DNA of 64,000 nucleotides from Neobacillus sp. PS3-34 (lineage in GTDB: Bacteria; Bacillota; Bacilli; Bacillales; Cytobacillaceae): positions 3,208,501 through 3,272,500 of the forward strand of contig NZ_CP133267.1 of NCBI RefSeq assembly GCF_030915465.1, read 5' to 3'. Below the pieces are notes generated by a model. The model saw only the letters and a list, made by a program, of their open reading frames with translations. It searched no databases and had not been told where the DNA came from. Below are positions 19,396 to 59,135 of this stretch, piece by piece. Position 1 is the stretch's first letter. Each line of letters opens with the position of its first letter. The position numbers were made by a program, and so were the translations under genes.

Positions 19396-19458
19396 CAAGG
19401 AAAGCTTCGGCAGCATATGCTTCGCACGAAGAAATAGCGATAGCTTTTTCGAGGAGCA
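19396..19458 (+). repeat. GATA-loop module, copy A1
   Basis: Begins CAAGGAAAGCTTCGGCAGCA and contains GCACGAAG and a stem around GCGATAGC. It ends at an AGGA (19452-19455). It is the most diverged of the three plus-strand copies and is inserted after CTAGCTCCA rather than at the hairpin tip. Confidence 0.7.
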
Positions 19459-19573
19459 CCCAGCCAGTTTTCACCTTTGAATAGCCCCTTTGAATTTCTT
19501 GCTCCAAGCATGACCTTTAGGTGATGCTTGGAGCAGCTCGGGGTCATAAGCCAAATCACTCCAGAAATCAGGA

Positions 19574-19636
19574 CAAGGAAAGCTTCGGCAGCATCCGCAT
19601 CGCACGAAGGAAAAGCGATAGCTTTTCCAAGGATGA
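19574..19636 (+). repeat. GATA-loop module, copy A2
   Basis: A 63-bp insert beginning CAAGGAAAGCTTCGGCAGCA, bounded by AGGA on both sides. The core is a perfect 8-bp stem GGAAAAGC / GCTTTTCC closed by a GATA tetraloop. A second pairing, GCAG.CATCC with GGATG.A.CTGC, extends the host hairpin into which it is inserted. Copy 1 of the host repeat shows the corresponding uninterrupted tip. Confidence 0.8.
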
Positions 19637-19805
19637 CTGCGTGATTCGTCTTATGCCTGTCGGGGCTAACCAGGGCGCTTGCGCCTTTTGTTCTCTTGCT
19701 TCGACAGGCTTGATCCAAGACTAGAAAACTTGAATTATGAACGAAGCAAGCGGTCTATGCGCGAAACTACAAATTACTTCAATCTCCACATGGATGTACG
19801 CCGGA

Positions 19806-19850
19806 TAAAAAAACAAAAGTAAAAGCAGTGAAATTCACTGCATTTACTTT
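19806..19850 (-). terminator. Rho-independent terminator of the TPR gene
   Basis: On the minus strand a 15-bp stem (AAAGTAAATGCAGTG with its partner) has a short loop and is followed by TGTTTTTTT. It lies 22 bases after the stop codon. Confidence 0.85.
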
Positions 19851-19871
19851 CATTTGGATAAAGTTTTGGTC

Positions 19872-20549
19872 TTAATTTATAAATGCTTTACATTCCTCTG
19901 ATTTTTCTAAGTCTTCCTGAGCAAGAACAGCTTTACCCAAATTTTTATATGCAATCGATCTGGCCAGATAGGCTCTGGAGATTCCCTGCCAATTATTGAT
20001 TGGCAAAAGCTTTTCAAGTGCCTGGTCAGCAAATTCCACTATTCTTTCACTAGGTACACTAATAATCCCCTTATTGGCGATATCCGCTTTGATGATCCAA
20101 TACCATCCTATACCTTGAATATGGTCAAAGGTGTCACCCTTTTCAAACATCTCCCGTGCTCTATCTAGTAAACTTAAACCCTCTTGAACTTGATTATTTG
20201 AAATATGGCTAATCCCTTTTGAAAATATGCTTTGTGCCAATGATACAGAATCTCCTGATAAACGAGCGAACTCTTCTTCCTTTTCACTATATTGGCTGGC
20301 TTCTGCTGGTTTCCCTAATGAACGGCACATATTACCGAGACGTAAATAACATTGTGCAAGTATTTTATAAGCATAAATCGTTTCTTCATCTGAATTACAG
20401 CCATCTAATAATTCAAGTAGCTTATCTTCAATAATCCGGTAGCCTTGAAGTGCCTCCGTGTATTTATTTTGCTGTTCATAGGTATGCAGTATTTCTTCCA
20501 TTTCCTTTTCAACACCAATTAGTAATTCTATTATCCTCAACCCCTTCAA
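19872..20549 (-). CDS. TPR-repeat protein
   Basis: Up to 225 residues, all helical, with at least three TPR-like repeats (for example TIYAYKILAQCYLRLGNMCR, and ISRAYLARSIAYKNLGKA near the C-terminus). TPR proteins act as protein-binding scaffolds; no other domain or signal peptide is seen, so it should be cytoplasmic. The start is uncertain. The frame opens at TTG 20549, but the ribosome site GAAGGGG (20541-20547) lies after that codon, and at the expected distance stand ATA ATA GAA. A G-to-A change or miscall of ATG at 20531 would explain this. Monocistronic, with its own promoter and terminator. Confidence 0.65.
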   Translation of the reverse strand: MKGLRIIELLIGVEKEMEEILHTYEQQNKYTEALQGYRIIEDKLLELLDGCNSDEETIYAYKILAQCYLRLGNMCRSLGKPAEASQYSEKEEEFARLSGDSVSLAQSIFSKGISHISNNQVQEGLSLLDRAREMFEKGDTFDHIQGIGWYWIIKADIANKGIISVPSERIVEFADQALEKLLPINNWQGISRAYLARSIAYKNLGKAVLAQEDLEKSEECKAFIN

Positions 20550-20565
20550 AACTATTTTTAATCAT

Positions 20566-20594
20566 ATTATAGTTTATTTTCTAAAAATAACCAA
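20566..20594 (-). promoter_or_regulatory. Sigma-A promoter of the TPR gene
   Basis: On the minus strand TTGGTT (20594-20589), a 17-bp spacer and consensus TATAAT (20571-20566). Transcription would start near 20559, just ahead of the GAAGGGG ribosome site. Confidence 0.6.
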
Positions 20595-20630
20595 TTAATG
20601 TAAAGGATTATTAATAAATACGACTGTCAT

Positions 20631-20660
20631 AAAAAAGCAGTGCAATTTTTTATGCACTGC
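20631..20660 (-). terminator. Rho-independent terminator of the DMT gene
   Basis: On the minus strand GCAGTGCA and TGCACTGC arms, an eight-base loop, then six T. Confidence 0.9.
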
Positions 20661-20677
20661 CTGCCCTCTTATGCCAA

Positions 20678-21103
20678 TTAATTCAACGCAGTCAACAGCA
20701 CACCAATCGCGATAAGGCCTACACCAATTCCGTTCACCATGCTTAGTTTTTCCCCGAAGAAGGCAATTGCAAAAACAGTTGCGATGACGACACTTAATTT
20801 ATCAATTGGGGCAACCTGCGATACCTTTCCGGTTTTAAGTGCCAAAAAGTAGAATAGCCAGGAAGTCGCTCCAGCAACTCCGCTCAAAACAATAAACATA
20901 AAGGTTTTCTTTTCACTGATAATTAGAGGGATTTTGCTTAAATTCCCTTCACAGGCGACTACCCCAAATAAAAAGATTGCCATAATGATGGCTCTGACTG
21001 CGGTTGCAGTATTGGCATCAATATTTTGCAGGCCTAACTTCCCGAATATCGAAACAAAAGCAGCAGAAACAGCTGAAAGAATTGCAAAGATAAGCCAGGA
21101 CAT
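20678..21103 (-). CDS. EamA/DMT family single-domain transporter
   Basis: A 141-residue membrane protein with about five helices, one EamA domain only (ILSAVSAAFVSIFGKLGLQN at the N-terminus, GEKLSMVNGIGVGLIAIGVL at the C-terminus). Classical DMT exporters have two such domains in about 300 residues, so this half-size protein probably works as a dimer. GGAGGGG precedes the ATG. The substrate cannot be predicted. Confidence 0.88.
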   Translation of the reverse strand: MSWLIFAILSAVSAAFVSIFGKLGLQNIDANTATAVRAIIMAIFLFGVVACEGNLSKIPLIISEKKTFMFIVLSGVAGATSWLFYFLALKTGKVSQVAPIDKLSVVIATVFAIAFFGEKLSMVNGIGVGLIAIGVLLTALN

Positions 21104-21378
21104 ACTGTAACCCCTCCTTTATTTTTTTCTTATAACAACAATTACCATTTGGACACACTAATTGCAAAGATTATCCAGAAAAATTTAATAAACTTTTAAG
21201 AATTCATTTAGAGAATTTTTAGGCTGGGTGGCTATGCTTATCCTTAAGCAAATTACTTCTTGATAGATAATTACTTTTCGGATGGAAAATCCTTATACAG
21301 TCCTGGAGAGAATTTCTTACGATGGGATACTATAAAAATATCCGGAATGAACGTTAAGCGCAGAAAGCGGTGTAATGA

Positions 21379-22854
21379 ATGTCAATTCGCCTAAGATTAT
21401 TGCTGTCCTATATCGCAATGATTTTTATCCCTATTTTATTTGCAATCATGTCAGCTTTATTGGTTGCCCTGCTCTTCAGGGGGGATGTAAAGGAATTGCG
21501 GGATATTTATCTGCCGCCTGAGCATCATGAACACCTGACAGCAAAGGATCAATTATTACTTGATTTACACCGGCAATCGGTTAAAGATTCAGGTCGATTT
21601 TTAAATCCTTCCTATTTAAGAAAAGTAGATAAGCAATTGAAGAAATCTGGTGCTGCATTGGTAATGCGGAAGGAAAGAACAATCACCTATCTATCTTCTT
21701 CTCTAAAAGGGCTTGATACAGAGGATCTACCATCGTTTGGAACGTATAGGGAAGCGGATCCTGTTGAGAGGATCGACCATCGATATGTATCGTTTAAACA
21801 GCTTGATTTTTTCTTCCCCGACAATTCTGAGGGATCGCTATTTCTTATTACAGACGCCAGCAGTCTGGCAAAATTTGTTCGTTCCTTTTTTCCCGGTTTA
21901 TTTATCGGTTTGATTCTTATATTAATCATTACAAATGGTTTATTAACTTATTATGTGTCCAGGAGTATCATCCGCCCGATAAGGGAGCTTCAGAGAGCCG
22001 CTAAAGAAATGAAGGAAGGCAATCTGAATGTGAAAATAGAAGCTATGTCCAAGGATGAGCTGGGCCAACTGGCAATGGGCTTCGAGGAAATGAGAGTAAG
22101 GCTGAAGGAATCGATTGAATTACAGCTGGCATATGAGGAAAACCGCAAAGAACTCATTGCCAATATCTCGCATGATTTAAAAACGCCGATCACAACGATA
22201 AAAGGATATGTAGAGGGTATTCGGGATGGTGTTGCCAATAGCCCTGATCGGATGGAGCGTTATATCCAGACGATCCATAATAAAGCAATTGACCTTGATC
22301 ATATGATCGACGAACTTTTTTTATACTCTAAACTCGACTTGCAGCGACTCCCATTTTATTTTGAGAAGTTTCATTTTGATGATTATGTTCAGGACTTCGT
22401 AGAGGAGCTTCGATTTGATGTAGAAGAAAAGAAAGTGGAAATAGTATTGGAAATTGAAAAAAATCGAGATTATACAGTGTTGGGTGACCGTGAGCATCTT
22501 AAGCGGGTTATTACTAATATTGTTAATAACTCATTGAAATATATTGAAAATGAAAATAAAAAGCTTTCCTTCCACTTATCTGCTTTAAAATCGCATATTC
22601 AGCTCAGTATTAAAGATAATGGACCGGGCATAGATGCTAAAAATCTTCCATTTATTTTTGACCGTTTTTACCGCGCTGATTTAGCAAGAGGAACAGAAAA
22701 GGGTGGCAGCGGCCTTGGGTTATCAATTGCTAAGAGAATTATTGAAGAGCACCATGGGTCCATTTGGGCAGAAAGCACCGAAGGACAGGGGACTAAGATT
22801 CTATTTACGTTAAAAAAGGCAGGTGAACAGGATGAAAACGATTTTAATCATTGA
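21379..22854 (+). CDS. Sensor histidine kinase of the envelope locus
   Basis: A 491-residue kinase: membrane helices at about 8-33 and 171-192, a ~135-residue extracytoplasmic sensor, a HAMP linker (about 195-250, with AAKEMKEGNLNVKIEAMSKDE), H box ANISHDLKTPITTIKGY (His265), and an ATP-binding domain with N (NNSLKY), G1 (DNGPGID) and G2 (GGSGLGLSIA) motifs. It resembles Bacillus kinases of the YkoH/YclK/BaeS type. The gene overlaps the response regulator that follows. Immediately downstream are three envelope-lipid or wall genes, its probable targets. Confidence 0.92.
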   Translation: MSIRLRLLLSYIAMIFIPILFAIMSALLVALLFRGDVKELRDIYLPPEHHEHLTAKDQLLLDLHRQSVKDSGRFLNPSYLRKVDKQLKKSGAALVMRKERTITYLSSSLKGLDTEDLPSFGTYREADPVERIDHRYVSFKQLDFFFPDNSEGSLFLITDASSLAKFVRSFFPGLFIGLILILIITNGLLTYYVSRSIIRPIRELQRAAKEMKEGNLNVKIEAMSKDELGQLAMGFEEMRVRLKESIELQLAYEENRKELIANISHDLKTPITTIKGYVEGIRDGVANSPDRMERYIQTIHNKAIDLDHMIDELFLYSKLDLQRLPFYFEKFHFDDYVQDFVEELRFDVEEKKVEIVLEIEKNRDYTVLGDREHLKRVITNIVNNSLKYIENENKKLSFHLSALKSHIQLSIKDNGPGIDAKNLPFIFDRFYRADLARGTEKGGSGLGLSIAKRIIEEHHGSIWAESTEGQGTKILFTLKKAGEQDENDFNH

Positions 22855-23518
22855 AGATGACAAAAGCATCGCAGAATTGGAACGCGATTATTTAGAAATA
22901 GATGGATTTAACGTTGAAATAGCGTTAACAGGAAATGAGGGTTTAGAGAAAGCTTTAAATCATGAAGTAGACCTGGTTCTGTTGGATCTTATGCTCCCAG
23001 GGCTTGATGGCTTCCAGATTTGCAAATCAATCCGTTTAAAAAAGGATATTCCGATACTGATGGTCACTGCCAAAAAAGAGGATATTGATAAAATTCGTGG
23101 CCTTGGAATAGGTGCAGATGACTATATTGTAAAGCCCTTCAGCCCAAGCGAATTGGTAGCAAGAGTAAAAGCACATCTTTCCCGTTATGAAAGGTTAATT
23201 GGCAAGGAAGCTCAGAATGATGTCATAATGATCCGGGGTCTGCGCATTGACAAGTCTTCAAGAAGGGTATTTGTCAATAATCATGAAGTAATGTTCACTG
23301 CTAAGGAATTCGATGTCCTGACATTTTTTGCACTCCATCCAAATCATGTTTTTAGCAAAGAACAGTTATTTGAGCGACTCTGGGGGTTTGATTCTTTGGG
23401 GGATATTTCCACTGTCACTGTGCACATCCGAAAAATCAGGGAAAAAATTGAATCAGATCCTTCAAATCCCCAATATCTTGAAACCGTGTGGGGAGCTGGA
23501 TACCGATTTAAAGAGTAA
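22832..23518 (+). CDS. OmpR-family response regulator of the envelope locus
   Basis: A 228-residue regulator: receiver with IIEDD acidic pocket, Asp52 in LLDLMLPG and Lys in IVKPF, and a winged-helix output domain ending VWGAGYRF. ATG 22832 lies inside the kinase gene (23-bp overlap) with GGCAGGTG as ribosome site, so the two are translationally coupled. It is followed after about 60 bases by the PAP2 gene. Confidence 0.93.
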   Translation: MKTILIIEDDKSIAELERDYLEIDGFNVEIALTGNEGLEKALNHEVDLVLLDLMLPGLDGFQICKSIRLKKDIPILMVTAKKEDIDKIRGLGIGADDYIVKPFSPSELVARVKAHLSRYERLIGKEAQNDVIMIRGLRIDKSSRRVFVNNHEVMFTAKEFDVLTFFALHPNHVFSKEQLFERLWGFDSLGDISTVTVHIRKIREKIESDPSNPQYLETVWGAGYRFKE

Positions 23519-23578
23519 AAATCATGAGAAAATGGAAAAACAACAAAATATGGAAATTTAGTGTAATGGAGGTTCAAC

Positions 23579-24184
23579 ATGTTTTCACATATAGATTTTA
23601 ATGCCTTTCAAACCATTAACCATCTTGCTGTAAGTGAGCGTATTCTAAATCCCCTGATGATTTTTCTTGCAGAGTGGGGTGAATATGTCTTCTTTGCCGG
23701 CATTTTATTTTATTGGTTTTATAAAATTTCAGAAAACAAGAATCGGAGAATGGTAGTAGAAGCATTACTTGCTGCTTGTTTAGCTTTAGGTATTAATGTG
23801 CTGATCGGAATGTTTATTTACCGTGACAGGCCTTTTGTCCATCACCACGTGAATTGGCTGATTCCACATGCGAAGAATGATTCATTTCCGAGTGACCATG
23901 CAACAGGAGCATTTGTTATTGCGGCCTCAATATGGCAGTGGAAAAAACGGGCGGGGTGGCTATGGCTTCTTCTTGCAGCAGGTATTTCCTTATCGAGAGT
24001 CTGGACGGGTGTCCACTATCCGGCGGACATCATTGCAGGAATGCTGATTGGGACAGGCTCTGCGTTTGCGGTTCATACACTTTCGATGCGATCCGGAAAG
24101 TTCGGTAAATTAATATCCTTTTTTATAAATTTTTATATCAAGATTGAAAGCCTCATTTTCAAAAAGAAAATTATTAACCCATAA
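23579..24184 (+). CDS. PAP2 phosphatase, BcrC-like undecaprenyl-diphosphatase
   Basis: A 201-residue protein with five to six membrane helices and the three acid-phosphatase motifs: YRDRPFVHHHVNW, SFPSDHATGAF and SLSRVWTGVHYPADI. The layout and length match B. subtilis BcrC, which dephosphorylates undecaprenyl diphosphate on the outer membrane face during cell-wall synthesis and gives bacitracin tolerance. GGAGG precedes the ATG. Its place right behind a two-component system suggests control by envelope stress. Lipid phosphatases of other specificity have the same motifs, so the substrate is inferred. Confidence 0.85.
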   Translation: MFSHIDFNAFQTINHLAVSERILNPLMIFLAEWGEYVFFAGILFYWFYKISENKNRRMVVEALLAACLALGINVLIGMFIYRDRPFVHHHVNWLIPHAKNDSFPSDHATGAFVIAASIWQWKKRAGWLWLLLAAGISLSRVWTGVHYPADIIAGMLIGTGSAFAVHTLSMRSGKFGKLISFFINFYIKIESLIFKKKIINP

Positions 24185-24250
24185 AAAAAGCAGGAAAGAC
24201 TGGTGCCGAATTCATTTTTATTCACTTTTTATGGTTGGGGAGTTAATGAA

Positions 24251-25395
24251 ATGATACAAGTTAAAAAGGAAAAACTTCTAATTCTTTCAGCCAATTTTGG
24301 AGACGGCCATAAACAGGTTGCAAAAGCAATAACAGAGGTGGCTGAGCTTTCGTATCCGGAAGTGGAGACGGCAACACTCGACATTATGAAGTGGATTCAT
24401 CCACGCCTTAATCCTATAAGTCATTTTTTATACATCAGGGGGATAAAAAGGTTACCGTTTTTATATAGTTTCATTTACAAGAGAACACGAAAACCCAACT
24501 CTTTTTCTATGAAGTTAAATTCCATCCTGTCATCTGGATTGGAACCGGTATTAGAGATTATCAACAACATGAAACCTTCAGTAGTGGTGAGTACCTATCC
24601 CTTTGCAGCCGGGATTATGTCAAAGTTAAAAGAACTTGGATTAATAAATGTTCCGATTGTTACGGTTATCACGGATTATACAGACCATTCATACTGGCTT
24701 CATCCAAACACAGACCATTATTTGGTTGGGTCGAAAGAGGTTGAGGAGCGGTTAATAAGACTTGGAGTAGAACGCAGTAAAATAAAAAACACCGGAATTC
24801 CGATACGACAGCAATTTTATAAAAAACATTCAAGAAACGCTCTTGCAGAAAAATTTGATTTTGATCCAAAAAAATTCACCTTGTTAGTGATGGGCGGCGG
24901 CGATGGGCTGATAGGGAAGGGTTTTTCCACTCTTCAAGCCTTGGAAAATATTCCACATCCAGTTCAAATCGTAATTGTGTGTGGACGTAATAAAAAATTG
25001 AAGCTCCAATTGGAAAGCAAGCTAAAGGATACAATTCATAAAATACGAATTGTTGGATTCTGTGAAAATATCGCTGAAATAATGGCGATTTCGGATATTA
25101 TGATAACAAAGCCGGGAGGTGTAACGACCACCGAAGCCATTGAGATGGATCTGCCAATGCTGATTTACAAACCGCTCCCCGCCAGGAGGAAGATAATGCT
25201 AATTATCTATTAGGAGAAGGAATGGCAGTCCTAGCCAAGAATGACAGAGATTTAAGTGCCAAGCTTCAAAGCTTGGTCGGCCATTCAAAACAATTAAAAT
25301 CTATGAAATCAAAAATTAGGGCTTATCATCGTTGGACAATAAAGAAGGATCCCTTGAAATCAATCCTTCAAAGTATTCCAGGAAGAGAGACATAA
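24251..25395 (+). pseudogene. MGDG synthase/UgtP-like diacylglycerol glycosyltransferase (frameshifted)
   Basis: Restoring one G near 25181 (CCGGCC read as CCGCC) extends the frame from 25213 to the stop at 25395, giving ~381 residues of a GT28 family enzyme. Seen are the N-terminal MGDG-synthase motif SANFGDGHKQVAKAI, VVSTYPFAAGIMSKLKE, ITDYTDHSYWLHPNTDH, and the nucleotide-sugar site ITKPGGVTTTEAIEMDLPM. UgtP-type enzymes add glucose from UDP-glucose to diacylglycerol, making glycolipids and the lipoteichoic acid anchor. ATG 24251 follows GGGGAG. Confidence 0.88.
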
Positions 25396-25485
25396 GAAAT
25401 TAGTTGATTTTTAACCTTACTACATCGACCGGCAAAAGCCGACCAAAGGGAAAAGGCTAGGGTTGCAACTGAGGTGAACAGAAGT

Positions 25486-26217
25486 ATGTACGAGAAATTA
25501 TTTTACTTTATCCTGATATTATTTATATTTTACACTCTTATTCCGTTCCTTTATTCAAGAGTATTAGGTATGGGAGTATTCAAAAACAATCGAAAATCAA
25601 ATAACATTGCCTTCACTTTTGACGATGGGCCGCACCCCGTCTATACCGCAGAGGTGTTGGATGTTTTAAGAGATCACCATATAAAGGCTGCCTTTTTTGT
25701 CCTGGGTTCCAGTGCTGAAAAATATCCGGAGTTAATCCTTCGCATACATAATGAAGGCCATTTAATTGGAATCCATAATTATGTTCATCATTCGAACTGG
25801 ATTATGGCACCATGGAAAATACGCAAAGATCTAGATCGTAGTGCTGCCATTATCGAAGGTATTACGGGGAAAAAGCCCCATTATTACCGCCCGCCCTGGG
25901 GCTTATTGAACATATTTGATTTTTTCATTCTCAAGGACTATAAAATCATTCTCTGGTCTTTAATGGCCGGGGATTGGCGGAGCCGCGGGGGAAGTGAAAG
26001 AGTGAGGAATGTGTTGCTTACAAAGGTGAAGCAGGGTGATATTATTCTTTTGCATGACAGCGGCGATACTCTTGGAGCGGATGAAGAAGCTCCCCAAAAT
26101 ACAATTTCTGCTTTAAAAGATGTTTTGAAGGAGGTAAGCTTACGAGGTTATACGTGTGTGAGAATAGATGAACTGTTTTACTCACAGCACCAAAACAATA
26201 ATATAAAACTCCAGTAG
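25486..26217 (+). CDS. Membrane-anchored polysaccharide deacetylase
   Basis: A 243-residue protein with an N-terminal membrane anchor (about residues 4-24) and a NodB-type carbohydrate esterase 4 domain outside the membrane: AFTFDDGPHP (metal-binding Asp), GIHNYVHHSNW (metal-binding His pair), YRPPWG, and the C-terminal LLHDSGD. It would remove acetyl groups from peptidoglycan sugars or a related polymer. ATG 25486 is preceded by GAGGTGA. It closes the kinase-regulator-PAP2-glucosyltransferase series and fits an envelope-remodelling role. Confidence 0.87.
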   Translation: MYEKLFYFILILFIFYTLIPFLYSRVLGMGVFKNNRKSNNIAFTFDDGPHPVYTAEVLDVLRDHHIKAAFFVLGSSAEKYPELILRIHNEGHLIGIHNYVHHSNWIMAPWKIRKDLDRSAAIIEGITGKKPHYYRPPWGLLNIFDFFILKDYKIILWSLMAGDWRSRGGSERVRNVLLTKVKQGDIILLHDSGDTLGADEEAPQNTISALKDVLKEVSLRGYTCVRIDELFYSQHQNNNIKLQ

Positions 26218-26300
26218 GCGGTAACATTCGAATGAAGGATTTTTTTTAAAAGAATATACCAAAACCAAAAAAGGAAAAACTAGAAAAGGAGGAATCATAA

Positions 26301-27110
26301 ATGAAAAATAATGAACAGAATCTCGATAGTAATAGGGATAATCGATCCATTGGCAGGCAAATGTTGAACAAAGTTCCAGAAGTGACAATCTACTTCTGGA
26401 TTATTAAGATCCTAGCAACGACGGTGGGTGAAACGGCAGCGGACTTCCTTAACGACAATCTGAATATGGGATTGACCAACACGACCATCATCATGAGTGT
26501 CCTCTTGCTCATCACACTGTTTTTCCAATTCAAAGCTAGAAAGTACGTGCCGAGGGTTTATTGGCTTGCAGTTGTACTCATAAGTGTGGTCGGTACGCTA
26601 GGTTCTGATAATTTGACGGACAATTTAGGTGTCCCACTTCAGACTACCACTATCATTTTCACCATCTTAATGCTTGCCACTTTTGCCATGTGGTACGCCA
26701 GTGAAAAAACACTTTCCATTCATTCTATCTTCACGACTAAGCGGGAAGCGTTCTATTGGTTAACCATCCTATTTACTTTCGCATTGGGTACTTCAGCTGG
26801 TGACCTTATAGCTGAGGGACTGAACATGGGGTACTGGAAGTCAGCGATTATGTTCGCCGCTGTGATCGGGGTGGTTGCCATCGCACACTACCGCTTCAAG
26901 CTGAATTCAGTGCTTGCCTTCTGGATCGCCTACATTTTGACCCGTCCTTTTGGAGCTTCTCTAGGCGACTTCCTATCACAGCCTCACCATAATGGTGGTC
27001 TTGGCCTCGGTACGATGGGAACAAGCGCACTCTTCCTCATAACAATCTTAGGCTTGGTCATTTACCTCACTATGACGAGAATAGACGCTCCAAAGTTAGC
27101 TGAGGAGTAG
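26301..27110 (+). CDS. COG4705-type membrane protein with four internal repeats
   Basis: A 269-residue integral membrane protein with about eight helices in four repeated pairs. Each repeat starts with a G-(E/S/T)-x-x-x-D signature: GETAADFLNDNLNMGLTN, GSDNLTDNLGVPLQTT, GTSAGDLIAEGLNMGYW and GASLGDFLSQP. The conserved acidic residues at membrane edges suggest metal or proton coordination. I recognise it as an uncharacterised membrane-anchored family (COG4705, from memory). Base composition is more GC-rich than its neighbours. GGAGG precedes the start. Confidence 0.75.
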   Translation: MKNNEQNLDSNRDNRSIGRQMLNKVPEVTIYFWIIKILATTVGETAADFLNDNLNMGLTNTTIIMSVLLLITLFFQFKARKYVPRVYWLAVVLISVVGTLGSDNLTDNLGVPLQTTTIIFTILMLATFAMWYASEKTLSIHSIFTTKREAFYWLTILFTFALGTSAGDLIAEGLNMGYWKSAIMFAAVIGVVAIAHYRFKLNSVLAFWIAYILTRPFGASLGDFLSQPHHNGGLGLGTMGTSALFLITILGLVIYLTMTRIDAPKLAEE

Positions 27111-27167
27111 AGTAAGGTACTGCCGCTAGAGAATCATCCGAAATACTTGAAGTGAATAATAACATAG

Positions 27168-27204
27168 AACAAGAGCGTTTCTAAGGAAGCGCTCTTGTTG
27201 TTAT
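27168..27204 (+). terminator. Rho-independent terminator
   Basis: A 14-bp stem (AACAAGAGCGTTTC with GAAGCGCTCTTGTT, one G-U pair) and a four-base loop, then a short T-rich tail. Confidence 0.8.
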
Positions 27205-41366: not shown

Positions 41367-41383
41367 CGATTAAAAAATTTTTT

Positions 41384-41600
41384 ATAATTAAATGATGTGG
41401 GTAACTTCTATTGAGTTGTATTAATCTAGCTCCAACGCCAAGCCGCTCGGGGGCATAAGCCAAATCACTCCAGAAATCAGGACAAGGAACACTTCGGCAG
41501 CATCCTCATCGCACGAGGGAAAAGCGATAGCTTTTCCGAGGATGACTGCGTGACTCGTCTTATGCCTGTAGGGGCTAACCAGGACGCTTGCGCCTTTTGT
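41384..41600. repeat. Interspersed structured repeat, copy 3 (one GATA module)
   Basis: Same family as 10067-10240 and 19332-19694, with about 10 percent divergence (for example GTGGGTAACTTCTATTGAG where the others have GTGAATAACTTCTACAAG). It carries a GATA module at the hairpin tip, in the same place as copy 2. Again it lies just downstream of a terminator. Confidence 0.82.
41483..41545 (+). repeat. GATA-loop module, copy A3
   Basis: 63 bp, bounded by AGGA on both sides, core stem GGAAAAGC-GATA-GCTTTTCC. The flanking pair CATCCTC/GAGGATG is two base pairs longer than in copy A2 because both arms changed together, a compensatory change. Confidence 0.8.
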
Positions 41601-41760
41601 ACCTCAAAGCTGGAGAGTTGAAAAGATATGGATACTAATTTAAAGCCAAAAATACTTTGTCGTTTTGCTGCCCAAATATCGAAAAAATTGAAACTATTCA
41701 GTAGATATACCGTCAATTTTTGTACGTACTGATAATATCTTATGGATGGAGGTGCTGCAG

Positions 41761-50588: not shown

Positions 50589-50635
50589 TTTTAAACGGAT
50601 TAATAAAAATAGTTTTTCTATACTTTCAAGAGATT

Positions 50636-50859: not shown

Positions 50860-51785
50860 ATGGCAGGAATAGTAGAGATACAAAATGTTACAAAAACCAT
50901 CAAAGGAAAAACAATTATTGATTCATTAAGCTTTGAAGTATATAAAGGGGAGGTATTCGGATTTCTGGGACCAAATGGTGCCGGAAAAACTACCACTATC
51001 AGAATGATGGTGGGACTAATTGGAATTACCTCAGGAGACATAAAAATCTCCGGCTACAGTGTCAAAAATGATTTTGAAAAAGCTGTCAGCAAGATTGGCG
51101 CGATTGTAGAAAATCCTGAAATGTATAAATTTCTGAGCGGCTATGAAAATCTTATCCACTTTGCACGCATGTCCAATGGTATCCGTAAAGAAAAAATCGA
51201 TGAAATAGTGGAGCTGGTAGGCTTGACTGACCGAATTCACGATAAAGTGAAGACCTATTCGCTTGGAATGAGGCAAAGGCTTGGCCTAGCTCAATCACTT
51301 TTGCATGATCCCAAGGTTCTCATTCTTGATGAACCGACCAATGGTCTTGATCCTGCGGGAATCCGTGAAATCAGAGACCATCTCAGAAAGCTTGCGAGGG
51401 AAAGGGATATGGCTGTAATTGTTTCGAGCCATTTACTTTCGGAAATGGAAATGATGTGTGATCGAATCGGGATAATCCAGGAAGGGAAGCTGGTGGATGT
51501 CCAGCTTGTCCATGATTTTGTAAATGGATCTGAAAAAGTATATGACATTGTAGTTAATCAAAAAGAAAAGGCAAAAAGGACTTTAGAATGCCTTTATCCT
51601 GCTTTGTCAGTTCATCTGACCGAAAATGGGATCGGTGCCTCATTTAAAAAAGAAGAAATTCCATTTGCCATTAAAGAACTGGTCAGCGCAGGAATCGATA
51701 TTTACGAAGTTAAGGAAATAACTAAAACTTTGGAGGATCGGTTCTTGGAAGTTACGGAAAAAAAGGGGAAGCAATGCATGTTTAA
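50860..51785 (+). pseudogene. ABC transporter ATP-binding protein, BcrA-like (frame error near 3' end)
   Basis: An ABC-2 type ATPase of ~308 residues: Walker A GPNGAGKTTT, signature YSLGMRQRLGL, Walker B VLILDEPTNGLDPAG, and a C-terminal extension typical of drug or bacitracin ABC ATPases. As read, the frame runs straight into the permease gene and looks like a fusion. Adding one A to the seven-A run at 51758-51764 gives the normal ending EKKGEAMHV and a stop at 51783-51785, overlapping the permease ATG. ATG 50860 follows GAGAGGAG. The substrate is unknown. Confidence 0.88.
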
Positions 51786-52730
51786 ATTGGTTCAAAACGA
51801 GTGGATGAAAATATTTAAGCGTCCGGGTACGCTGGTCATGATTGGTTTACTTTTGATTATGATTTCATTAACCGGTGCGGTTATTAAGTATCAGCAAAAT
51901 AAAGGTGTGTCCCATTTAGATCAAAACTGGAAGCAAACACTTCAGGCAGAAGTGAAACAATCGAAGGATCAGTTGGCAATAGGAAAGGTACCTGAGAGCC
52001 AAATTTCAAATATAAAAAGAAATATTGCCATTAAAGAATACAGAATTGAACATAATCTTTCACCGAATGTTAAATATTCAATGTGGGATTTTGTATCGGA
52101 TGGTGCGGGTTTAATAAAATTAGCTGGTTTATTTACTATTATTATTGCTGCAGGGATTGTTGCTTCCGAGTTTAATTGGGGGACGATTAAACTTCTGCTG
52201 ATCAGGCCGATTAGCAGGGAAAGATTTTAGTCGCCAAGTACATGGCTGTTATTTTGTATGCACTGATGATGTTAGTTATTTTATTTTCATTCTCTGCTCT
52301 TTTAGGAATAATATTATTTGGGGCACCAGAGAATGCTGTTCCATATCTTAATTATTCTGACGGGAATGTAACAGAACAAAGCATGGTTTTCCACCTTGTC
52401 ATTTTTTATGGGATGAAATCCATAGCGATGATTATGCTTTCTACCATGGCATTTATGATTTCAGCTGTGTTCAGAAACAGCTCACTCGCGATTGGGCTTT
52501 CCATCTTCCTCATGTTTACTGGGACGGAACTGACGATGCTCTTGGCGATGAAATTTGATTGGGCAAAATATATACTGTTTGCCAATACTGATCTAATGCA
52601 ATACTTTGAAGGAGTTCCGATGGTTAATGGAATGACCATATCGTTTTCTGTCATCATGCTCACAATTTATTTTATTTTGTTTCAGCTTCTAGCTTATGTC
52701 GTTTTCAAAAAGAGAGACGTTGCTGCTTAA
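51778..52730 (+). pseudogene. ABC-2 type permease (frameshifted)
   Basis: About 317 residues with six helices when one T is restored at 52225-52228 (SRERFLVAKYMAVILYALM). It starts MFKLVQNEWMKIFKRPGTL, a classic start for BcrB/YxlG-like permeases, has a long extracellular loop between helices 1 and 2 (about 45-110), and ends VVFKKRDVAA. The start codon lies inside the 3' end of the ATPase gene. Together they form a two-gene exporter, probably for a peptide or small molecule. Confidence 0.85.
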
Positions 52731-52734
52731 TGAA

Positions 52735-52770
52735 AAAAGGTCTGACCCATGTTTTCGGGACAGACCTTTT
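52735..52770 (+). terminator. Rho-independent terminator
   Basis: AAAAGGTCTG and CAGACCTTTT arms with an inner CCC/GGG pairing. It may also serve the short minus-strand gene that ends at 52772. Confidence 0.88.
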
Positions 52771-52771
52771 A

Positions 52772-52930
52772 TTATATATACATATGCAATATTTTTTTGG
52801 CAAATTTAATGTACTCCGGATGGTGAGTGATGATCCAGAGTGATAAAAACAAGAGAATGATGACCATGTAATTCAAACCATATAATATTTTAACTGTTAT
52901 ATCAGGGGTTCTTCCACTTTTATTTGCCAT
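52772..52930 (-). CDS. 52-residue single-helix membrane protein
   Basis: A short ORF: MANKSGRTPDITVKILYG, one membrane helix (LNYMVIILLFLSLWIITH), then a basic end (KFAKKILHMYI). GAGAGGCGAAGGA lies just upstream of the ATG. It fills the gap between a terminator and the downstream gene. No family known. The hydrophobic pattern, the ribosome site and the fit between features argue for a real gene. Confidence 0.5.
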   Translation of the reverse strand: MANKSGRTPDITVKILYGLNYMVIILLFLSLWIITHHPEYIKFAKKILHMYI

Positions 52931-53027
52931 TTCCTTCGCCTCTCACCGATTGATCCATCAAAGTATTAGACGCTTAATAGGCAGACTTGGTTTCCGTGTG
53001 ATGAAAATAAATTTCCGGATGTCCACC

Positions 53028-54281
53028 CTAAAGCGGTTTTAAGGCGGTTGTCGAATCGATAAAAATAAAGCTGTCATATCTTTTCGCAAGGTTGGTGGGA
53101 ACATAATTTCCAAAGTGTTCTAATGCCGGTTCATATACTACCCCGATTGCCCGATGTCCGGCTATTGTATCAAATAGGCTGGATTGAAGCAGATTTGGCA
53201 AAATGATCTGATCATATTGTCCAGCACGGTGGATCACTTCTTCCCAGCTTCCTCTGCTTGCAGGCGGTACTTCCATTACTTCCAGAGGGGCACCCCAGGA
53301 AGGACCTGCAATAACTGTCCCCTGATAGGTTCCGAACCCAACAGCGAAGACATCAGAGCCATGTTTCTCCCTCATAAGCTGTCCGACATTTACCATACCT
53401 TCTTCAGCCATGTCGGTTGCACTTGCATCCCCAATATGGGTGTTATGCTCCCAAACAATGACTTTGGAATCGGAACCATGAAAGTCAGTAAGCTTTTCGA
53501 TAGTCTCGACCATATGGGTATCACGGATATTCCAGGTTTCTGTTCCGCCCTTAACCATTGAACGATAATAAAGCTCCGCATTGGCAGCGACTAATGCATT
53601 GAGCTCAAGGCTCAGGGACGCTTCATCATCTGTCGCAATTGCTTCCTTTTTAGATTGGATGTCCAGTAATAGCTTCAGGACTTCCTGTTCACAGCTTTCC
53701 GACAAATAGGCGGTTGTCATGGCATAATCATGCTCGTTCTTCTCAAAAGGCTGAAAGCAGGAAAATGCCATTTTGGCGACTTCGACTTCCTCTGAACCGA
53801 TGCTTTCTAAATAACGAATGATTTCTTCCATTGATTCAAACAGGCTGTACATATCAATTCCATAAAAGCCAACCTTTTTTTTAGCAGACTCATTATGCTT
53901 TTTCAGCCATTCTGCAAAGCTTAGCACTTCTTTATTCGCCCACATCCAGGTTGGCCAGCGTTTGAAGTTATTCTTTAAAAGGGTAACGATATCCTTCTTT
54001 TCCTCATCTAAGCCTTTGCAATAGCGGTTAACCATATAGCAGGAAGGCCAATCGCCTTCAACTGCAACAAAAGAGAATCCTTTCTCTTCAATCAACTTTT
54101 TGGAAATCTCTGCCCTGATATTATAAAACTCCGATGTCCCATGGGTAGCTTCCCCTAGAAGAACATATCTGGCATCGCCAATCGCATTAAACAACTCATC
54201 AAGATTGCCATAATCATTTAGGCGTACTGCTTTTTCTCTAATAGCTTTTACAACCTTTAAATATTGGATGTTTAACCCCAT
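53028..54281 (-). CDS. Erythromycin esterase family protein
   Basis: A 417-residue protein of the erythromycin esterase/succinoglycan (EreA/ChaN-like) family: LLGEATHGTSEFYNIRAE near residue 45 (His of the active site), AVEGDWPSCYMVNRY, VGFYGIDMYSLFESM, and VWEHNTHIGDASATDM. True macrolide esterases share this fold, but most Bacillus homologues have no known resistance role. It lies 48 bases downstream of the amino-acid permease on the same strand. Confidence 0.88.
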   Translation of the reverse strand: MGLNIQYLKVVKAIREKAVRLNDYGNLDELFNAIGDARYVLLGEATHGTSEFYNIRAEISKKLIEEKGFSFVAVEGDWPSCYMVNRYCKGLDEEKKDIVTLLKNNFKRWPTWMWANKEVLSFAEWLKKHNESAKKKVGFYGIDMYSLFESMEEIIRYLESIGSEEVEVAKMAFSCFQPFEKNEHDYAMTTAYLSESCEQEVLKLLLDIQSKKEAIATDDEASLSLELNALVAANAELYYRSMVKGGTETWNIRDTHMVETIEKLTDFHGSDSKVIVWEHNTHIGDASATDMAEEGMVNVGQLMREKHGSDVFAVGFGTYQGTVIAGPSWGAPLEVMEVPPASRGSWEEVIHRAGQYDQIILPNLLQSSLFDTIAGHRAIGVVYEPALEHFGNYVPTNLAKRYDSFIFIDSTTALKPL

Positions 54282-54329
54282 CCTTTTCTATTATTTGTAT
54301 TCATTTAAACAGGAAATAAAATTATTAAA

Positions 54330-55703
54330 CTAGCCTGACTTTTTTGCAGCCTTGCGCCAGACCTTTTTTTGCAAAATGAAAGCAACGATGCCAATAATTG
54401 CGACAAATAACAGGCTGACAAAAAATCCATAGCGAATGTTTTTTTCCATTATCGTTCCGCTGATCGCTGCGAGGATCAATGCAAGACCAGCAAAGGCCAT
54501 CATTTTATCCAAGCTTGTGACCTTCAACACCTTCAAGGCAGAAATAACAATGAACGACCAATTAAACAGGAGAAGAATACCTGCAGCGGTTGTAATATAC
54601 TCATATATCTTTCCAGGCAGCAGAAGTGCTGTGATGATCGAGGCCACTAATCCTGCTGCTCCAAGCCCTAATGAAGGGAGAGGCAGATCCTTGAATTTCT
54701 TAAGTTTTTTTGAAAAAAATGAAGGAGCATCCCCTCCCACGGATAGTGTAACAAGGAGAGTCGTAACACCGAATAACGAGGCAGTCATTGTAGAGAATCC
54801 CGCAATGATTATCGCGCCGTTAAAGACATGTGGAAAAAAAGGCAAATGATAATTGTCCATAGCGGTTACAAATGGACTTTCCTTTTCGTTAAAGGCATGA
54901 AAATACACCATTATCACAGCAAGGCCAAGAGATAATACATAAATAATCATCAATACAAGGAGCATAATTTTTCCTGCCTTTGGAGCATCCTCCTTCTTTT
55001 GAAGCTGCATCGCCATTAGACCTATTACTTCAATTCCTCCATATGCATAAAAAGCATAGATGAGTGATGACCAGAAGCCTTTAAGGCCATTCGGGAAGAT
55101 TGCTCCCATTGTTCTGGGGAAGTCTGGTTTACTAGCATCACCGTGTACCCAGCCAAATAAAGCGGCCAACGCAAGAATGATAAACATGATAATCGCAGCC
55201 GTTTTAATTATGGCGAGAATGTTTTCTACCCTGTCGAATCCTTTTGTTCCCAATAAAACAACGAAAATGGCAAGGACAGCGTATCCAGCTGCGAAAATCC
55301 ACAGGGGAACCTTGGGAAACCAGAACCTTGAGAGTATGGATAGAGCCGTTAATTGGCTGCCCATAATAAGAATGTTAGAGCACCAGTAATTCCACCCACA
55401 GCTAAAGCCCGCCCAGCGTCCGTATGCTTTGTTAGCGTAATAGCAAAAAGAACCTTCCTGTGGATCCTCGGCGGTCATTTTGGCAAGTAAATTGAATACG
55501 ATGTACGTCCCGATGGCAGCCAAAACAAAAGAAAAAACAATAGAAGGGCCTGTAACCTCAATTCCGATACTGGAACCCAGGAAGTACCCGGTTCCAATGG
55601 TACAACCAATCCCCACCATAGACAATTGCCACCATTTCATGTCTCCTTTACTTTGCCCTTGTCCCTGGCTTTCACTTCCTGGACTGCAATTCGCTTTAGT
55701 CAA
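54330..55703 (-). CDS. APC family amino acid permease
   Basis: A 457-residue permease with twelve membrane helices. APC features are the N-terminal MVGIGCTIGTGYFLGSSIG (unwound helix 1) and YAFYAYGGIEVIGLMAMQ (helix 6). It is transcribed divergently from kynU, so an aromatic amino acid, possibly tryptophan, is a reasonable guess but not shown. The start at 55703 has GGAGG upstream. The N-terminal tail is polar (SPGSESQGQGQSKGD). Confidence 0.88.
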   Translation of the reverse strand: MTKANCSPGSESQGQGQSKGDMKWWQLSMVGIGCTIGTGYFLGSSIGIEVTGPSIVFSFVLAAIGTYIVFNLLAKMTAEDPQEGSFCYYANKAYGRWAGFSCGWNYWCSNILIMGSQLTALSILSRFWFPKVPLWIFAAGYAVLAIFVVLLGTKGFDRVENILAIIKTAAIIMFIILALAALFGWVHGDASKPDFPRTMGAIFPNGLKGFWSSLIYAFYAYGGIEVIGLMAMQLQKKEDAPKAGKIMLLVLMIIYVLSLGLAVIMVYFHAFNEKESPFVTAMDNYHLPFFPHVFNGAIIIAGFSTMTASLFGVTTLLVTLSVGGDAPSFFSKKLKKFKDLPLPSLGLGAAGLVASIITALLLPGKIYEYITTAAGILLLFNWSFIVISALKVLKVTSLDKMMAFAGLALILAAISGTIMEKNIRYGFFVSLLFVAIIGIVAFILQKKVWRKAAKKSG

Positions 55704-55885
55704 TGAAATACCTCCTTCATCTCGGATTATTATTCGATTTTTAGGAGCTAAATATGAAGTGGCAGAAGTTTAATTTTTGGAAGTGTAAAGGATCGAAAGT
55801 TTTGGAATATTTAGATTTAGCGTTGACGGTATGTCGCATTCCTTGTTACGCTTTGTTTAGTATGATATAAGAGCAGGGGGTTGCA

Positions 55886-57172
55886 ATGGGACTTTATAGC
55901 TTTGAACCAACACATGATTACGCACAAATACTTGACCAAAACGATCAGCTTGCAGCTTATCGTAATGAATTTTATTTAAAACCGAATTCTATTTATCTGG
56001 ATGGAAATTCTTTGGGGCTTCTTTCAAAAAGGGCTGAAAAGGCTTTGCTGGATTGTGTGAATGATTGGAAGGAACGAGGAATTGATGGCTGGATGCAGGG
56101 TGACCATCCCTGGTTTTATTTATCGGAAAAATTGGGAGCGCTCTGTGCACCTCTGGTTGGAGGGTTACCTGAAGAAGTAATTGTAACCGGTTCCACGACA
56201 GTGAATCTGCATCAGCTTGTGGCTACTTTTTACAAGCCTGAGGGAAACCGCACAAAAATATTGGCAGATGAGTTGACCTTCCCATCCGATATTTATGCTT
56301 TACAAAGCCAGCTGCGCATTCATGGACATGATCCAGAACCACACCTTCTTCGAGTGAAGAGCAGGGACGGGCGATTTTTGGAGGAGAAAGACATTATTGA
56401 TGCCATGACAGAGGAAGTTGCTTTGATTATCCTGCCGACAGTCCTTTATCGCAGCGGACAAATATTAAATATGGAACGTTTGACGAAAGAAGCCCATGAC
56501 CGCGGCATACTGATCGGATTTGATGGCTGCCATTCTATTGGGGCAATTCCACATTCGTTTTCTGATTGGGATGTTGATTTTGCATATTGGTGCAGCTATA
56601 AGCATTTAAATGGGGGACCGGGAGCAGTTGCCGGATTATATGTGAACCGAAAGCATTTTGGCACACTTCCTGGCCTTGCCGGCTGGTTCGGCTCTAAAAA
56701 GGAACATCAATTTGATATGGAACATACCTTTTTTCCTGCTGAATCAGCAGGTGCATACCAAATTGGAACTCCTCATCTATTGAGTGTAGCCCCATTAATT
56801 GGTTCACTTGAGATGTTTGGAGAAGCTGGCATAGGCAATATCCGTACGAAATCGCTTTTAATGACGCAATATTTAATGGAATTAGTTAAGCATGAACTAA
56901 ATGGTCTAGGGTTTAGCATCGGCAGCCCGATGGATGAGGTGCGGAGAGGCGGGCATGTAAGCCTTGAACATGCGGAGGCGGCACGGATCTGCAAAGCGCT
57001 TAAGGAAAATGGAGTAATACCGGATTTCCGTGCACCTAATATTATCCGGCTTGCTCCTGTTGCACTTTATACTTCATATTGTGAGGTGTGGCAGGCAGTC
57101 CAAATCCTTAAAAAAATCATGTCTGAAAAACAGTACGAAAAGTTTAAAAACGAAAGAGAAGTCGTAGCTTAG
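55886..57172 (+). CDS. kynU: Kynureninase
   Basis: A 428-residue PLP enzyme of fold type I. Kynureninase features: [11 protein letters not shown] near the N-terminus, [30 protein letters not shown] (PLP-binding Asp), [12 protein letters not shown] (Schiff-base Lys) and [14 protein letters not shown]. It hydrolyses kynurenine to anthranilate and alanine in tryptophan breakdown. GCAGGGGG precedes the ATG. It is followed by kynA with a 39-base gap; the kynurenine formamidase gene (kynB) usually found with them is not present. Confidence 0.95.
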
Positions 57173-57211
57173 ATTGATGAAATGCCACGCATTGAAAGGA
57201 AGGGGCAGAAA

Positions 57212-58058
57212 ATGAGCAATGAAATAAATAAAAATGGAGCTCTGGAAAAAGACATTCATACAGATTTTCAAAAGGAAATGTCCTATGGGGGCTATCTTCA
57301 ACTCGAGAAGATACTAACAAGCCAGCACCGAGTTTCGGACCATCATGATGAAATGCTTTTCATTATTATCCACCAGACGAGCGAGCTATGGATGAAGCTG
57401 ATTCTCCATGAAGTAAATGCGGCTGCCGAATGCATCCGGAGGAATGATCTTGAGCCTTCATTTAAAATGCTCTCACGTGTATCGCGGATACAGCAGCAAT
57501 TAATCCAATCTTGGAATGTGTTATCGACCCTGACACCAGCAGAGTATATGGAATTTAGGGATAAGCTTGGCCATTCATCTGGTTTTCAATCGTATCAAAA
57601 CCGGCTGATTGAGTTTGCATTGGCGCAAGAAAAATGCTCATGTGTTATTAGTATATAAGCATGAGCCTGAGCTTTATAAACAGCTGACAAACGCACTTCA
57701 TGAGCCAGGCCTATACGACGCAGCCGTGAATGCACTCGCTCTTAGAGGATTGCCGATTGACCAGGAAGCGCTTGATAGGGATTGGTCGCAGGAGTATCAG
57801 CCGAACGCGAGTGTCGAGGAAGCCTGGCTGACAGTGTACCGAAATGTGGACCAATATTGGGATTTATATGAGCTGGCTGAAAAACTGGTGGATATCGGAA
57901 GCCAGCAGCAGCTATGGCGCTTTAACCATATGAGTACAGTCGAAAGAATCATTGGAAATAAAAAAGGAACCGGAGGCTCATCGGGAGTGTCGTATCTAAA
58001 GAGGGTTCTTGACCATCAATTCTTCCCTGAGCTATGGAGCTTGAGGACAAAGCTTTGA
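57212..58058 (+). pseudogene. kynA: Tryptophan 2,3-dioxygenase (two frame errors close together)
   Basis: About 282 residues after restoring one G at 57622-57623 and one A in the run 57630-57634, giving [22 protein letters not shown]. Family signs: heme- and substrate-site region [32 protein letters not shown], and the C-terminal [15 protein letters not shown]. It opens the indole ring of tryptophan to N-formylkynurenine using heme and oxygen. ATG 57212 is preceded by AAGGGG. A terminator follows at 58070. Confidence 0.92.
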
Positions 58059-58069
58059 TTGATCCAAAT

Positions 58070-58098
58070 GGGGCAGGGGAACCTGCTCCTTTTAATTT
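58070..58098 (+). terminator. Terminator of the kynU-kynA operon
   Basis: GGGCAGG/CCTGCTC hairpin with a GGAA-type loop, followed by TTTTAATTTT. The remaining ~130 bases to the next gene hold nothing I can support. Confidence 0.75.
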
Positions 58099-58225
58099 TG
58101 TTACCGAAAGGAAAGTTGGCAAAAAGAAAAAACCTTGCCAAAGGCAAAGTCTATTATGGTGGAGAAAGTATAATTAAAAAAATGAACAGAGCGGCTGATA
58201 AGTGGAGCTTCTTTTTAGCTTTGAT

Positions 58226-58732
58226 TCATTTTTTTACATCAAAATGTTCTTGTATAAATTTCATTTCTTCCTCTGGAGATGCAATTCCGTATGCTTCACC
58301 AGTAGTTCCATCTTGTAACCGCCAGATTGTATTGTGATCATAGACAGCATTACTGAAATTATTCTCTGCCCAATCCTCGAGTATCCCTAAATATAAGTCA
58401 GAATGCGCATATTCCTTTTCGTTAGCTTTTACTACTTCTATTAATCTTTTTACTCGCTTAGGTGTTAAAGGTAAGGCTCCCCACTTTTCTTTTGCCAGAA
58501 CTTTTTGATGTGACATATTATGAATAGCTTGCTGTACAGATGCTTCGCTCATGTTATAAGGAAATTCATCTTTAAGGTTTTCTCCTTGGTCATGGACCTG
58601 AATTACTTTTTCGCCATCAGAGGAAACTACCTCTGTTACAGTTACATTTGCTTTACTGGCAAATAAATAAACTATATAAAAACTAATTATTAAAATAGGA
58701 ATCATAATTATTTTCTTTGGGATTTTTTTCAT
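58226..58732 (-). CDS. Membrane-anchored protein, DUF6241-like
   Basis: A 168-residue protein with one N-terminal membrane helix (about 8-26) and an extracytoplasmic domain of about 135 residues (NMSEASVQQAIHNMSHQKV, WGALPLTPKRVKRLIEVV, LEDWAENNFSNAVYDHNTIW). It resembles Bacillus proteins annotated DUF6241; that label is from memory. The function is unknown. A good AAGGAG precedes the ATG. Confidence 0.68.
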   Translation of the reverse strand: MKKIPKKIIMIPILIISFYIVYLFASKANVTVTEVVSSDGEKVIQVHDQGENLKDEFPYNMSEASVQQAIHNMSHQKVLAKEKWGALPLTPKRVKRLIEVVKANEKEYAHSDLYLGILEDWAENNFSNAVYDHNTIWRLQDGTTGEAYGIASPEEEMKFIQEHFDVKK

Positions 58733-58871
58733 TATTTCTCCTTATAATGTAAATCGATTACTATTCAAAAATTATAACAAAAAAGACTCCTGAAAACAGT
58801 TGTTTTTTCCTTTATTTTCAATTTGTGCTTATCCATATTTTTAAATGAAGGGATATTCGTAAAAATAATTA

Positions 58872-59135
58872 GGCTGTTTTCGTAAATTTGTTGCTATTTA
58901 GAGTGAATCAGATGGTTGATGGAGCGGAAGGTGCGAGATCCTCGAAAATGCTATCGCATTTCCTTCGTGCGGTGTTGATTCTAGGAAGCTGATTCAACGT
59001 CCTGAGGGAGCAGTGGGACAGGTGAGACCCCGCAGTCGCTTCAGCGACGAGGAGGCTCACCGCCCACCCCGCGGAAAGCGAGCATCCTGAAGCGGAAATC
59101 AACTACTAAAAACAACAATCTTTTAGAAATCAGCC
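58872..59135. mobile_element. MITE-like element with terminal inverted repeats and 8-bp target duplication
   Basis: A 264-bp non-coding element. The ends GGCTGTTTTCGTAAATTTGT and (reverse complement of the right end) GGCTGATTTCTAAAAGATTG are imperfect terminal inverted repeats of about 40 bp. Exactly outside both ends stands AATAATTA (58864-58871 and 59136-59143), a perfect 8-bp target-site duplication. The interior holds the GC-rich GTGGGACAGGTGAGACCCCG...CGCGGAAAGCGAGC segment familiar from Bacillus genomes and, nested in it, a GATA module. It encodes no protein and must have been moved by a transposase acting in trans. Confidence 0.82.
58937..58990 (-). repeat. GATA-loop module, copy A4 (inside the MITE)
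   Basis: Read on the minus strand it shares GCACGAAGGAAATGCGATAG with copies A1-A3. The stem keeps the GATA loop but has ATGC/GCAT in place of AAGC/GCTT, a compensatory change. It is again bounded by AGGA (TCCT on the plus strand at about 58939 and 59001), so the full insert may reach 59000. Confidence 0.7.

Follow-up and report, generated by a model that had tools for sequence, protein, structure and literature searches.

A 60–61 nt hairpin unit at exact points in unrelated intergenic repeats of Neobacillus sp. PS3-34 and other Bacillales: a candidate non-autonomous mobile element

The window considered here is a stretch of 64,000 nucleotides (bases 3208501–3272500) of the 4.9 Mb single-contig genome of Neobacillus sp. 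PS3-34. It holds four copies of a short hairpin-forming segment, here called the unit; three of these lie in an intergenic repeat, K, and the fourth lies in an unrelated repeat, H, which resembles a miniature inverted-repeat transposable element (MITE). This distribution, first described in a sequence-only reading of the window, is borne out by the sequence itself, by a pattern search and by a covariance model. A pattern written from the four copies gives four matches in the window against a shuffled mean of 0.01. The covariance model recovers all four with E values of 7e-19 to 2e-25; its training alignment includes the unit at 41483–41542 itself and close kin of the other three.

There are three copies of K in the window, all on the forward strand. 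Copy 1 (10068–10239) has no insert at either unit site, nor at a further position, M, where K may carry a different hairpin of about 70 nt; the proposal that this copy represents an empty site holds. Copy 2 (19333–19693) carries an insert at each of the three sites, 1, M and 2. Its first unit (19396–19455, forward) lies between GCTCCA and GCACCC, and the empty counterpart, AGCTCCA^GC (the caret marks the insertion point), is seen in other K copies of the genome. The M insert, a CTCCAAGCATGACCTTTAGGTGATGCTTGGAG hairpin, occupies 19466–19536 (forward; limits by eye), and the second unit (19574–19633, forward) lies between TCAGGA and TGACTG, the empty counterpart being TCAGGATTTCCTG. Copy 3 (41381–41602; left limit by eye) is filled only at site 2, with a unit at 41483–41542 (forward) recognised by sequence and covariance model. 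On the reverse strand, the H repeat (58872–59135; limits by eye) has the ends GGCTG...CAGCC and holds a unit at 58939–58999 (reverse) between CAGGA and TCTCGC, where other H copies read CAGGA^GTCTCGC.

The unit has a simple plan: its first base is a C following an A, a left arm some 30 nt long precedes a single hairpin, and the end is CGAGGA. The length first given, 63 bp, is too long; 170 of 208 distinct sequences measure 60–61 nt, as collected by a structure-based finder that allowed 56–63 nt or so. The alignment, judged by eye, shows CAAGGAA or CATTGAA at the start of the unit and, on the opposite strand, TCCTCG at its other end; no terminal inverted repeats were found. The stem, originally called perfect, is so in three of the four window copies when G-T is counted as a pair, and the copy at 19396–19455 has one T.T mismatch. 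Similarly, the AGGA said to bound every copy is present at all four right ends and in three left flanks, the left flank at 19396 being TCCA. A paired stem change, A-T to T-A, does distinguish the 58939 copy from the 19574 copy. Over a larger set (n = 255), the bases before the unit are AGGA in 215 cases, TCCA in 28 and others in 12; these counts are not independent evidence, because the finder required a final A and favoured AGGA and TCCA.

The stem covaries. For 71 diverse units (70 of 73 picked, plus one window row), RNAalifold predicts a single helix of eight pairs, in which all 567 cells pair and both partners change in four of the eight pairs. Of the five measures observed, none is equalled in 500 shuffles, and slid versions of the helix pair at 52.4% or less. 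Three units left out of the alignment (L233:2143–2198, L244:3543–3600 and L341:1442–1501) are genuine, their stems being intact, and two occupy new sites; their omission did not favour the result. When the most variable pair was checked without any demand for pairing, it was standard in 230 of 237 copies against a shuffled mean of 146 and maximum of 164 (2000 shuffles), in a test that treats related, non-independent copies as separate. The hairpin tip reads GCGATAGC in 119 of 237 copies, the remainder having GAAT, GTTA, GAGA or other loops; thus the loop letters are not fixed. Some units have a wholly different hairpin. The hairpin sequence can change provided that pairing is kept, and the suggested selection on the fold is borne out by this covariation. 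No unit in the window matches Rfam at the gathering score, and at E values up to 1 the region 19300–19760 gives only two weak microRNA matches, both on the M hairpin; identity with an Rfam family is rejected, as none matches the units.

Genome-wide, a stricter degenerate pattern that is blind to the host, with copies fetched irrespective of their surroundings, finds 52 units: H holds 20 of them, K site 2 has 19 and K site 1 has 11, and the other 2 lie inside another unit. A looser pattern finds 87 (50 forward, 37 reverse), and its reversed control none. Applied to fetched DNA of the same genome, chosen partly by K and H patterns, the structure-based finder gives 84 matches, of which H accounts for 44, K site 2 for 20 and K site 1 for 14; 2 are nested and 4 judged to be chance. 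Occupancy was scored in 68 K copies collected by one right-end pattern and in 87 H copies collected in the same manner. Some insert is present in 33 of the 68 K copies, and all eight combinations of the three sites occur: no insert in 35, site 2 only in 5, M only in 3, M and 2 in 9, site 1 only in 8, 1 and 2 in 2, 1 and M in 2, and all three in 4. Occupancy of site 1 does not depend on M (Fisher p = 0.33) or on site 2 (p = 0.53); M and site 2 are associated (p = 1e-5). H is filled in 41 copies and empty in 46 by our rule, and both H groups distinguished hold both states (filled/empty 9/5 and 32/41).

Several properties of the hosts may be added. Site M takes unrelated hairpins, of the GCATGACC...GGTGATGC type in the PS3-34 genome (19466–19536 in the window) and, in most copies of Bacillus sp. 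cl95 (L317, L320, L322–L339), one or two of the GTTGTTTCC...GAAACAAC type. K begins a few bases past a T-run resembling the tail of an intrinsic terminator (e.g. window 10050–10075 and 19320–19335); TTTT occurs within 14 bases before the leader in 48 of the 52 K copies (out of 68) that have a leader match. The two repeats show opposite strand bias, with 58 of 68 K copies and 23 of 87 H copies running with replication; the replichore limits used, 2.45 and 4.40 Mb, are a guess based on the GC skew of 0.25 Mb bins of partial sequence.

Exact junctions are found in relatives. In cl95, K site 2 reads CAGAAATCAGGA^unit^TTTCCTGC (L256, the same locus as L332), and an empty copy in the same genome reads CAGAAATCAGGATTTCCTGC (L234). 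Neobacillus terrae (G003) likewise provides a same-genome pair, CCCACAGGA^unit^TGTGGGTCAGG (L341) versus CCCACAGGATGTGGGTCAGG (L346), the insertion point lying at the tip of a small hairpin. The target in Bacillus sp. HNG, GCACAGGA^unit^TGTGC (L244), reads like that of N. terrae; no empty copy of it was seen. A third host repeat, J, carries CTACGATAAGTCAACATCG, and nine rows read CTCCA^unit^G[GT][CT]CATA. Its junction CTCCA^unit^GTCCATACG (L219) can be set against empties from different genomes, CTCCA^GTCCATACG (L233) and ATCCA^GTCCATCCG (L256); the right flank in L219, GTCCATACG, equals that of the J empties. At another J site the unit has the opposite orientation (L146, L161, L173, L208), including in Caldibacillus thermoamylovorans (L208) and G057. 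A third K site, K3, is occupied in five cl95 loci (L333, L334, L336–L338), perhaps through one event, by units with the usual kind of left arm and an unrelated hairpin of the GGCACAAGT...ACTTGTGCC type. L356 has one more unit site. In total, at least eight distinct target sites were counted by eye, a number that implies nothing about events per site; where several loci of the same genome have a site in common, a single event may lie behind them. At K site 2, a right flank of TGACTG or similar, as in PS3-34, also occurs in most site 2 copies of cl95 and N. terrae, and reflects either a different event or an altered flank.

These junctions qualify the idea that AGGA at hairpin tips is the target. 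Such a target does recur, at K site 2, at CCCACAGGA^TGTGGG (L341/L346) and at GCACAGGA^TGTGC (L244), but TCCA, AACA and AGCA flanks also occur, and neither K site 1 nor the H site is a tip; in the predicted folds of empty K and H, only K site 2 among the three kinds of site in the window lies at a hairpin tip. AGGA as sole target and hairpin tips as a rule are therefore both rejected. No consistent target site duplication was found across the sites compared: AGGA...AGGA frames the unit only at K site 2, H, L341 and L244, TCCA...AGGA at K site 1 and J, and AACA...CGA at K site 3. With flanks this inconsistent between sites, duplication as a general rule is rejected as well.

Units also occur next to and inside one another. 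L152 has two in tandem, and two pattern matches 61 bases apart at G057:C100:9665–9757 are probably another such pair. In the PS3-34 genome, the K copy at 3303702 has a unit within the left arm of another unit, and the K copy at 1915983 has a partial nested one. In six cl95 loci (L334–L339), perhaps representing one event, the stem of one unit is interrupted by a second unit, whose own stem is ATGATGC/GCATCAT; at the left junction a single base of the outer stem is altered. In L233, TTTTTGAGGA comes after a unit with the stem ATTATGC/GCATAAT and appears to be what is left of the end of an outer unit. Chimeras are found too; H hosts in G046 and Sutcliffiella horikoshii bear units with K-like left arms.

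Further copies in relatives, which the sequence-only reading led one to expect, are present in many genomes by both pattern and covariance-model scans. The pattern occurs in 15 of 61 genomes, PS3-34 included, and a scan of named genomes gives at least 120 stretches with a unit. At the level of the order, the covariance model (71 rows, E up to 0.001) matches 106 of 397 genomes and 50 of 135 genera; the 106 include PS3-34 and others that supplied training rows, and by our reading of the list nine match only above 1e-6. In a sample across the phylum (E up to 1e-5) only 3 of 398 genomes match, PS3-34 and two of its family. Among the matches listed for the named genomes are Neobacillus, Cytobacillus, Sutcliffiella, Peribacillus, Rummeliibacillus, Caldibacillus, Mesobacillus, Sporosarcina globispora and unclassified Bacillus, and of 158 copies from outside PS3-34, 122 lie in H by a simple rule. 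Repeats of Bacillaceae kind also appear in records titled Pseudomonas sp. ISL-84 (L218, L254, L288) and Paenibacillus sp. BSR1-1 (L189, L212), titles that may be wrong. Apart from these repeats, the right edge of the window holds the start of a 16S rRNA gene (63248–64000), with a tRNA gene at 60230–60302 (reverse).

At exact points, then, unrelated repeats either hold or lack a unit with recurring ends, a recurring arm and a pairing hairpin. One genome can contain both filled and empty hosts and the junctions are exact at several unrelated sites, so that the earlier description of a separable segment stands. From these comparisons of sequence we infer that the unit is mobile; the explanation that we find on balance probable, if only just, is that the 60–61 nt segment as a whole is a non-autonomous mobile hairpin. 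It would be moved by an enzyme acting in trans. Most plausibly, a single-stranded, folded copy of the unit would be joined 3' of an A, a route suggested by the absence of inverted termini and of any consistent target duplication. The unit might then persist mainly by landing in abundant intergenic repeats, where an extra hairpin may be tolerated, and by being copied along with them. Taken together, the original observation and its interpretation each survive in part.

A number of points weigh against mobility. No orthologous locus differing by the unit alone was found in the comparisons made, and the sole orthologous comparison, between two genomes, lacks the whole host rather than the unit. 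No moving enzyme was found in the genomes examined. The unit has one orientation at each site, and many copies therefore probably derive from few events. Each exact filled/empty pair from the same genome is a single locus; the right flank of K site 2 in PS3-34 is altered (TGACTG for TTTCCTG), and conversion could have restored the flank of the exact cl95 insertion. The ends also vary, the nested unit at 3303702 ending in GAGGC instead of CGAGGA, and K3 units ending in CGA or CGAGG, with the end altered or lost in L336. Finally, finder scoring makes the flank statistics favour A, AGGA and TCCA, and conservation in the alignment is inflated, as the finder demanded at least seven pairs and the named-genome pattern fixed several letters.

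The orthologous comparisons covered 148 loci from outside PS3-34. Pairwise, they gave 10 matches of at least 400 bases, 72.5–83% identical; genes within the genus are about 73–79% identical. Around K copy 3, with 40 candidates scored in each of three genomes of the same genus, no K lay beside a matching flanking gene among the matches listed. In G033 (L165 1351–1608), 258 bases holding H and a unit lie between matching flanks, where G009 (L296 1394–1500) has 107 unmatched bases between flanks matching G033; H appears to be absent there, and hence itself appears to be mobile.

A bolder form of the mobile-hairpin explanation, possible but in our view tentative, is that the unit represents a distinct class: a minimal transposable hairpin with a recurring left arm, a CGAGGA end and a freely exchangeable hairpin, which a trans-acting single-strand enzyme would put 3' of an A and which would home to structured repeats and to itself, so that hairpins would grow recursively from hairpins across Bacillales.

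Among the alternatives, the one that survives best dispenses with a dedicated enzyme. The unit could be a cassette that is shuffled by template switching or gene conversion at short matches such as AGGA and spreads with its hosts. The occurrence of all eight K combinations, the acceptance of unrelated hairpins at site M, and the chimeric units of G046 and Sutcliffiella horikoshii, in which left arms and right halves recombine, would all fit such shuffling. So would the lack of clear clustering of insert states on the host trees of K and H relative to shuffled labels. The numbers of changes were 14 versus a shuffled mean of 13.9 for K site 1, 17 versus 17.7 for site 2, 15 versus 16.1 for M and 21 versus 23.8 for H, with 130, 83, 62 and 28 of 200 shuffles, respectively, as low (1 of 68 K rows and 16 of 87 H rows were dropped). 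However, only 16 of 65 branches of the K tree reach 80 or more, and with a tree so poorly resolved this result is weak either way. Against shuffling, the ends of the unit are constant at sites without AGGA or a common flank (K site 1, J and the unit's own stem), and the unit is reversed at one J site. We regard shuffling alone as rather unlikely.

More doubtful still is an ordinary functional RNA or DNA domain, such as a protein-binding hairpin between GGA motifs, that the repeats would have had from the start and that some copies would since have lost. The strong stem covariation would be expected of such a domain, most units with their flanks have a GGA to either side of the hairpin (by eye, uncounted), and because K copies follow terminator-like T-runs, read-through transcription of them is possible. 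Yet the unit occupies several unrelated places in K, both orientations in J, H, tandem arrays and its own interior, and K site 1 and J lack the direct repeats that slippage deletion would use.

The agent originally proposed was a transposase of the Y1 type that moves repetitive extragenic palindromes (REPs). One Y1_Tnp gene is present in PS3-34, and by its motifs it resembles the REP-associated tyrosine transposase (RAYT) kind. It is flanked by a different palindrome, GTGACAGGCACC..., three copies of which lie in L061 without any unit. The gene and its palindromes (GTGACAGGCACCTTCCAGTTGGCTGGAAGGTGCCTGTCAC) were noted at about 1–60 and 1400–2080 of L061, and the K copy at 300765 has half a palindrome in its leader. 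Of the 61 genomes searched, PS3-34 included, 51 have at least one Y1 gene; no Y1 match was found in the carriers G003, G006 and G019 (G006 being a carrier by covariance model only). With carrier status set by pattern, the gene is missing from 2 of 15 carriers and from 8 of 46 non-carriers, and therefore there is no association. At the foot of the hairpin the 71-row alignment, read by eye, has no GTAG consensus and shows CGAAG or CGAGGA. A REP moved by the resident RAYT-like enzyme is accordingly very improbable, its gene lying next to another palindrome and some carriers having no Y1 gene at all.

How does the unit compare with known systems? It differs from a classical MITE in having neither terminal inverted repeats nor a consistent target site duplication. 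These two traits, together with insertion after an A and a hairpin immediately within the right end, are reminiscent of single-strand (HUH) elements in general, but the seemingly variable flank would not suit a fixed IS200/IS605 target. The bcr repeats of the Bacillus cereus group are Bacillales intergenic repeats with features of mobile elements, a likeness by description.

Closest in behaviour, as far as the excerpted account goes, are the GC clusters of yeast mitochondria (GC42 and its kin), which are flanked by AG or ACT duplications (PMC4478555). Like the unit, they are short palindromes without genes, present in many copies with constrained stems, prone to merging and shuffling, and their agent is unproven (PMC4478555). 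They are mitochondrial and have duplications, whereas the unit is bacterial, shows no consistent duplication and lies mostly inside other repeats. Some GC clusters carry an AGGAG motif; it did not turn up in the text searched. Pneumococcal BOX is an intergenic repeat of composite build in which an internal hairpin module, boxB, is optional and can be missing or repeated, and BOX, RUP and SPRITE have inserted into one another (PMC3049150). K has an optional internal module in the same sense, with its eight occupancy combinations in 68 copies, a likeness of layout. In the excerpt of that source boxB stays within BOX-type elements, the variants of S. suis included (PMC3049150); the unit, in contrast, is shared by three or more unrelated hosts and also occurs within its own copies. 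REPs are short, high-copy palindromes thought to be mobile; GTAG REPs have RAYT transposases, and CGTC REPs are described, in the part consulted, as having no dedicated transposase and, like the unit, no known agent (PMC3733652). Unlike REPs, the unit has no GTAG tag, has a left arm of 30 nt, is placed precisely inside repeats and occurs in carriers without a Y1 gene. A literature search by title and opening of the abstract, with most subscription journals beyond its reach, returned no description of the unit.

If the unit is a mobile hairpin, few mobile units proposed in bacteria would be as small, and it would offer well-defined ends and a wealth of natural empty sites. An exchangeable hairpin combined with a recurring arm and end indicates what an enzyme would have to recognise. 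The origin, merging and growth of palindromic repeats, be they REPs, BOX or the GC clusters of organelles, would then become testable in free-living, cultivable bacilli.

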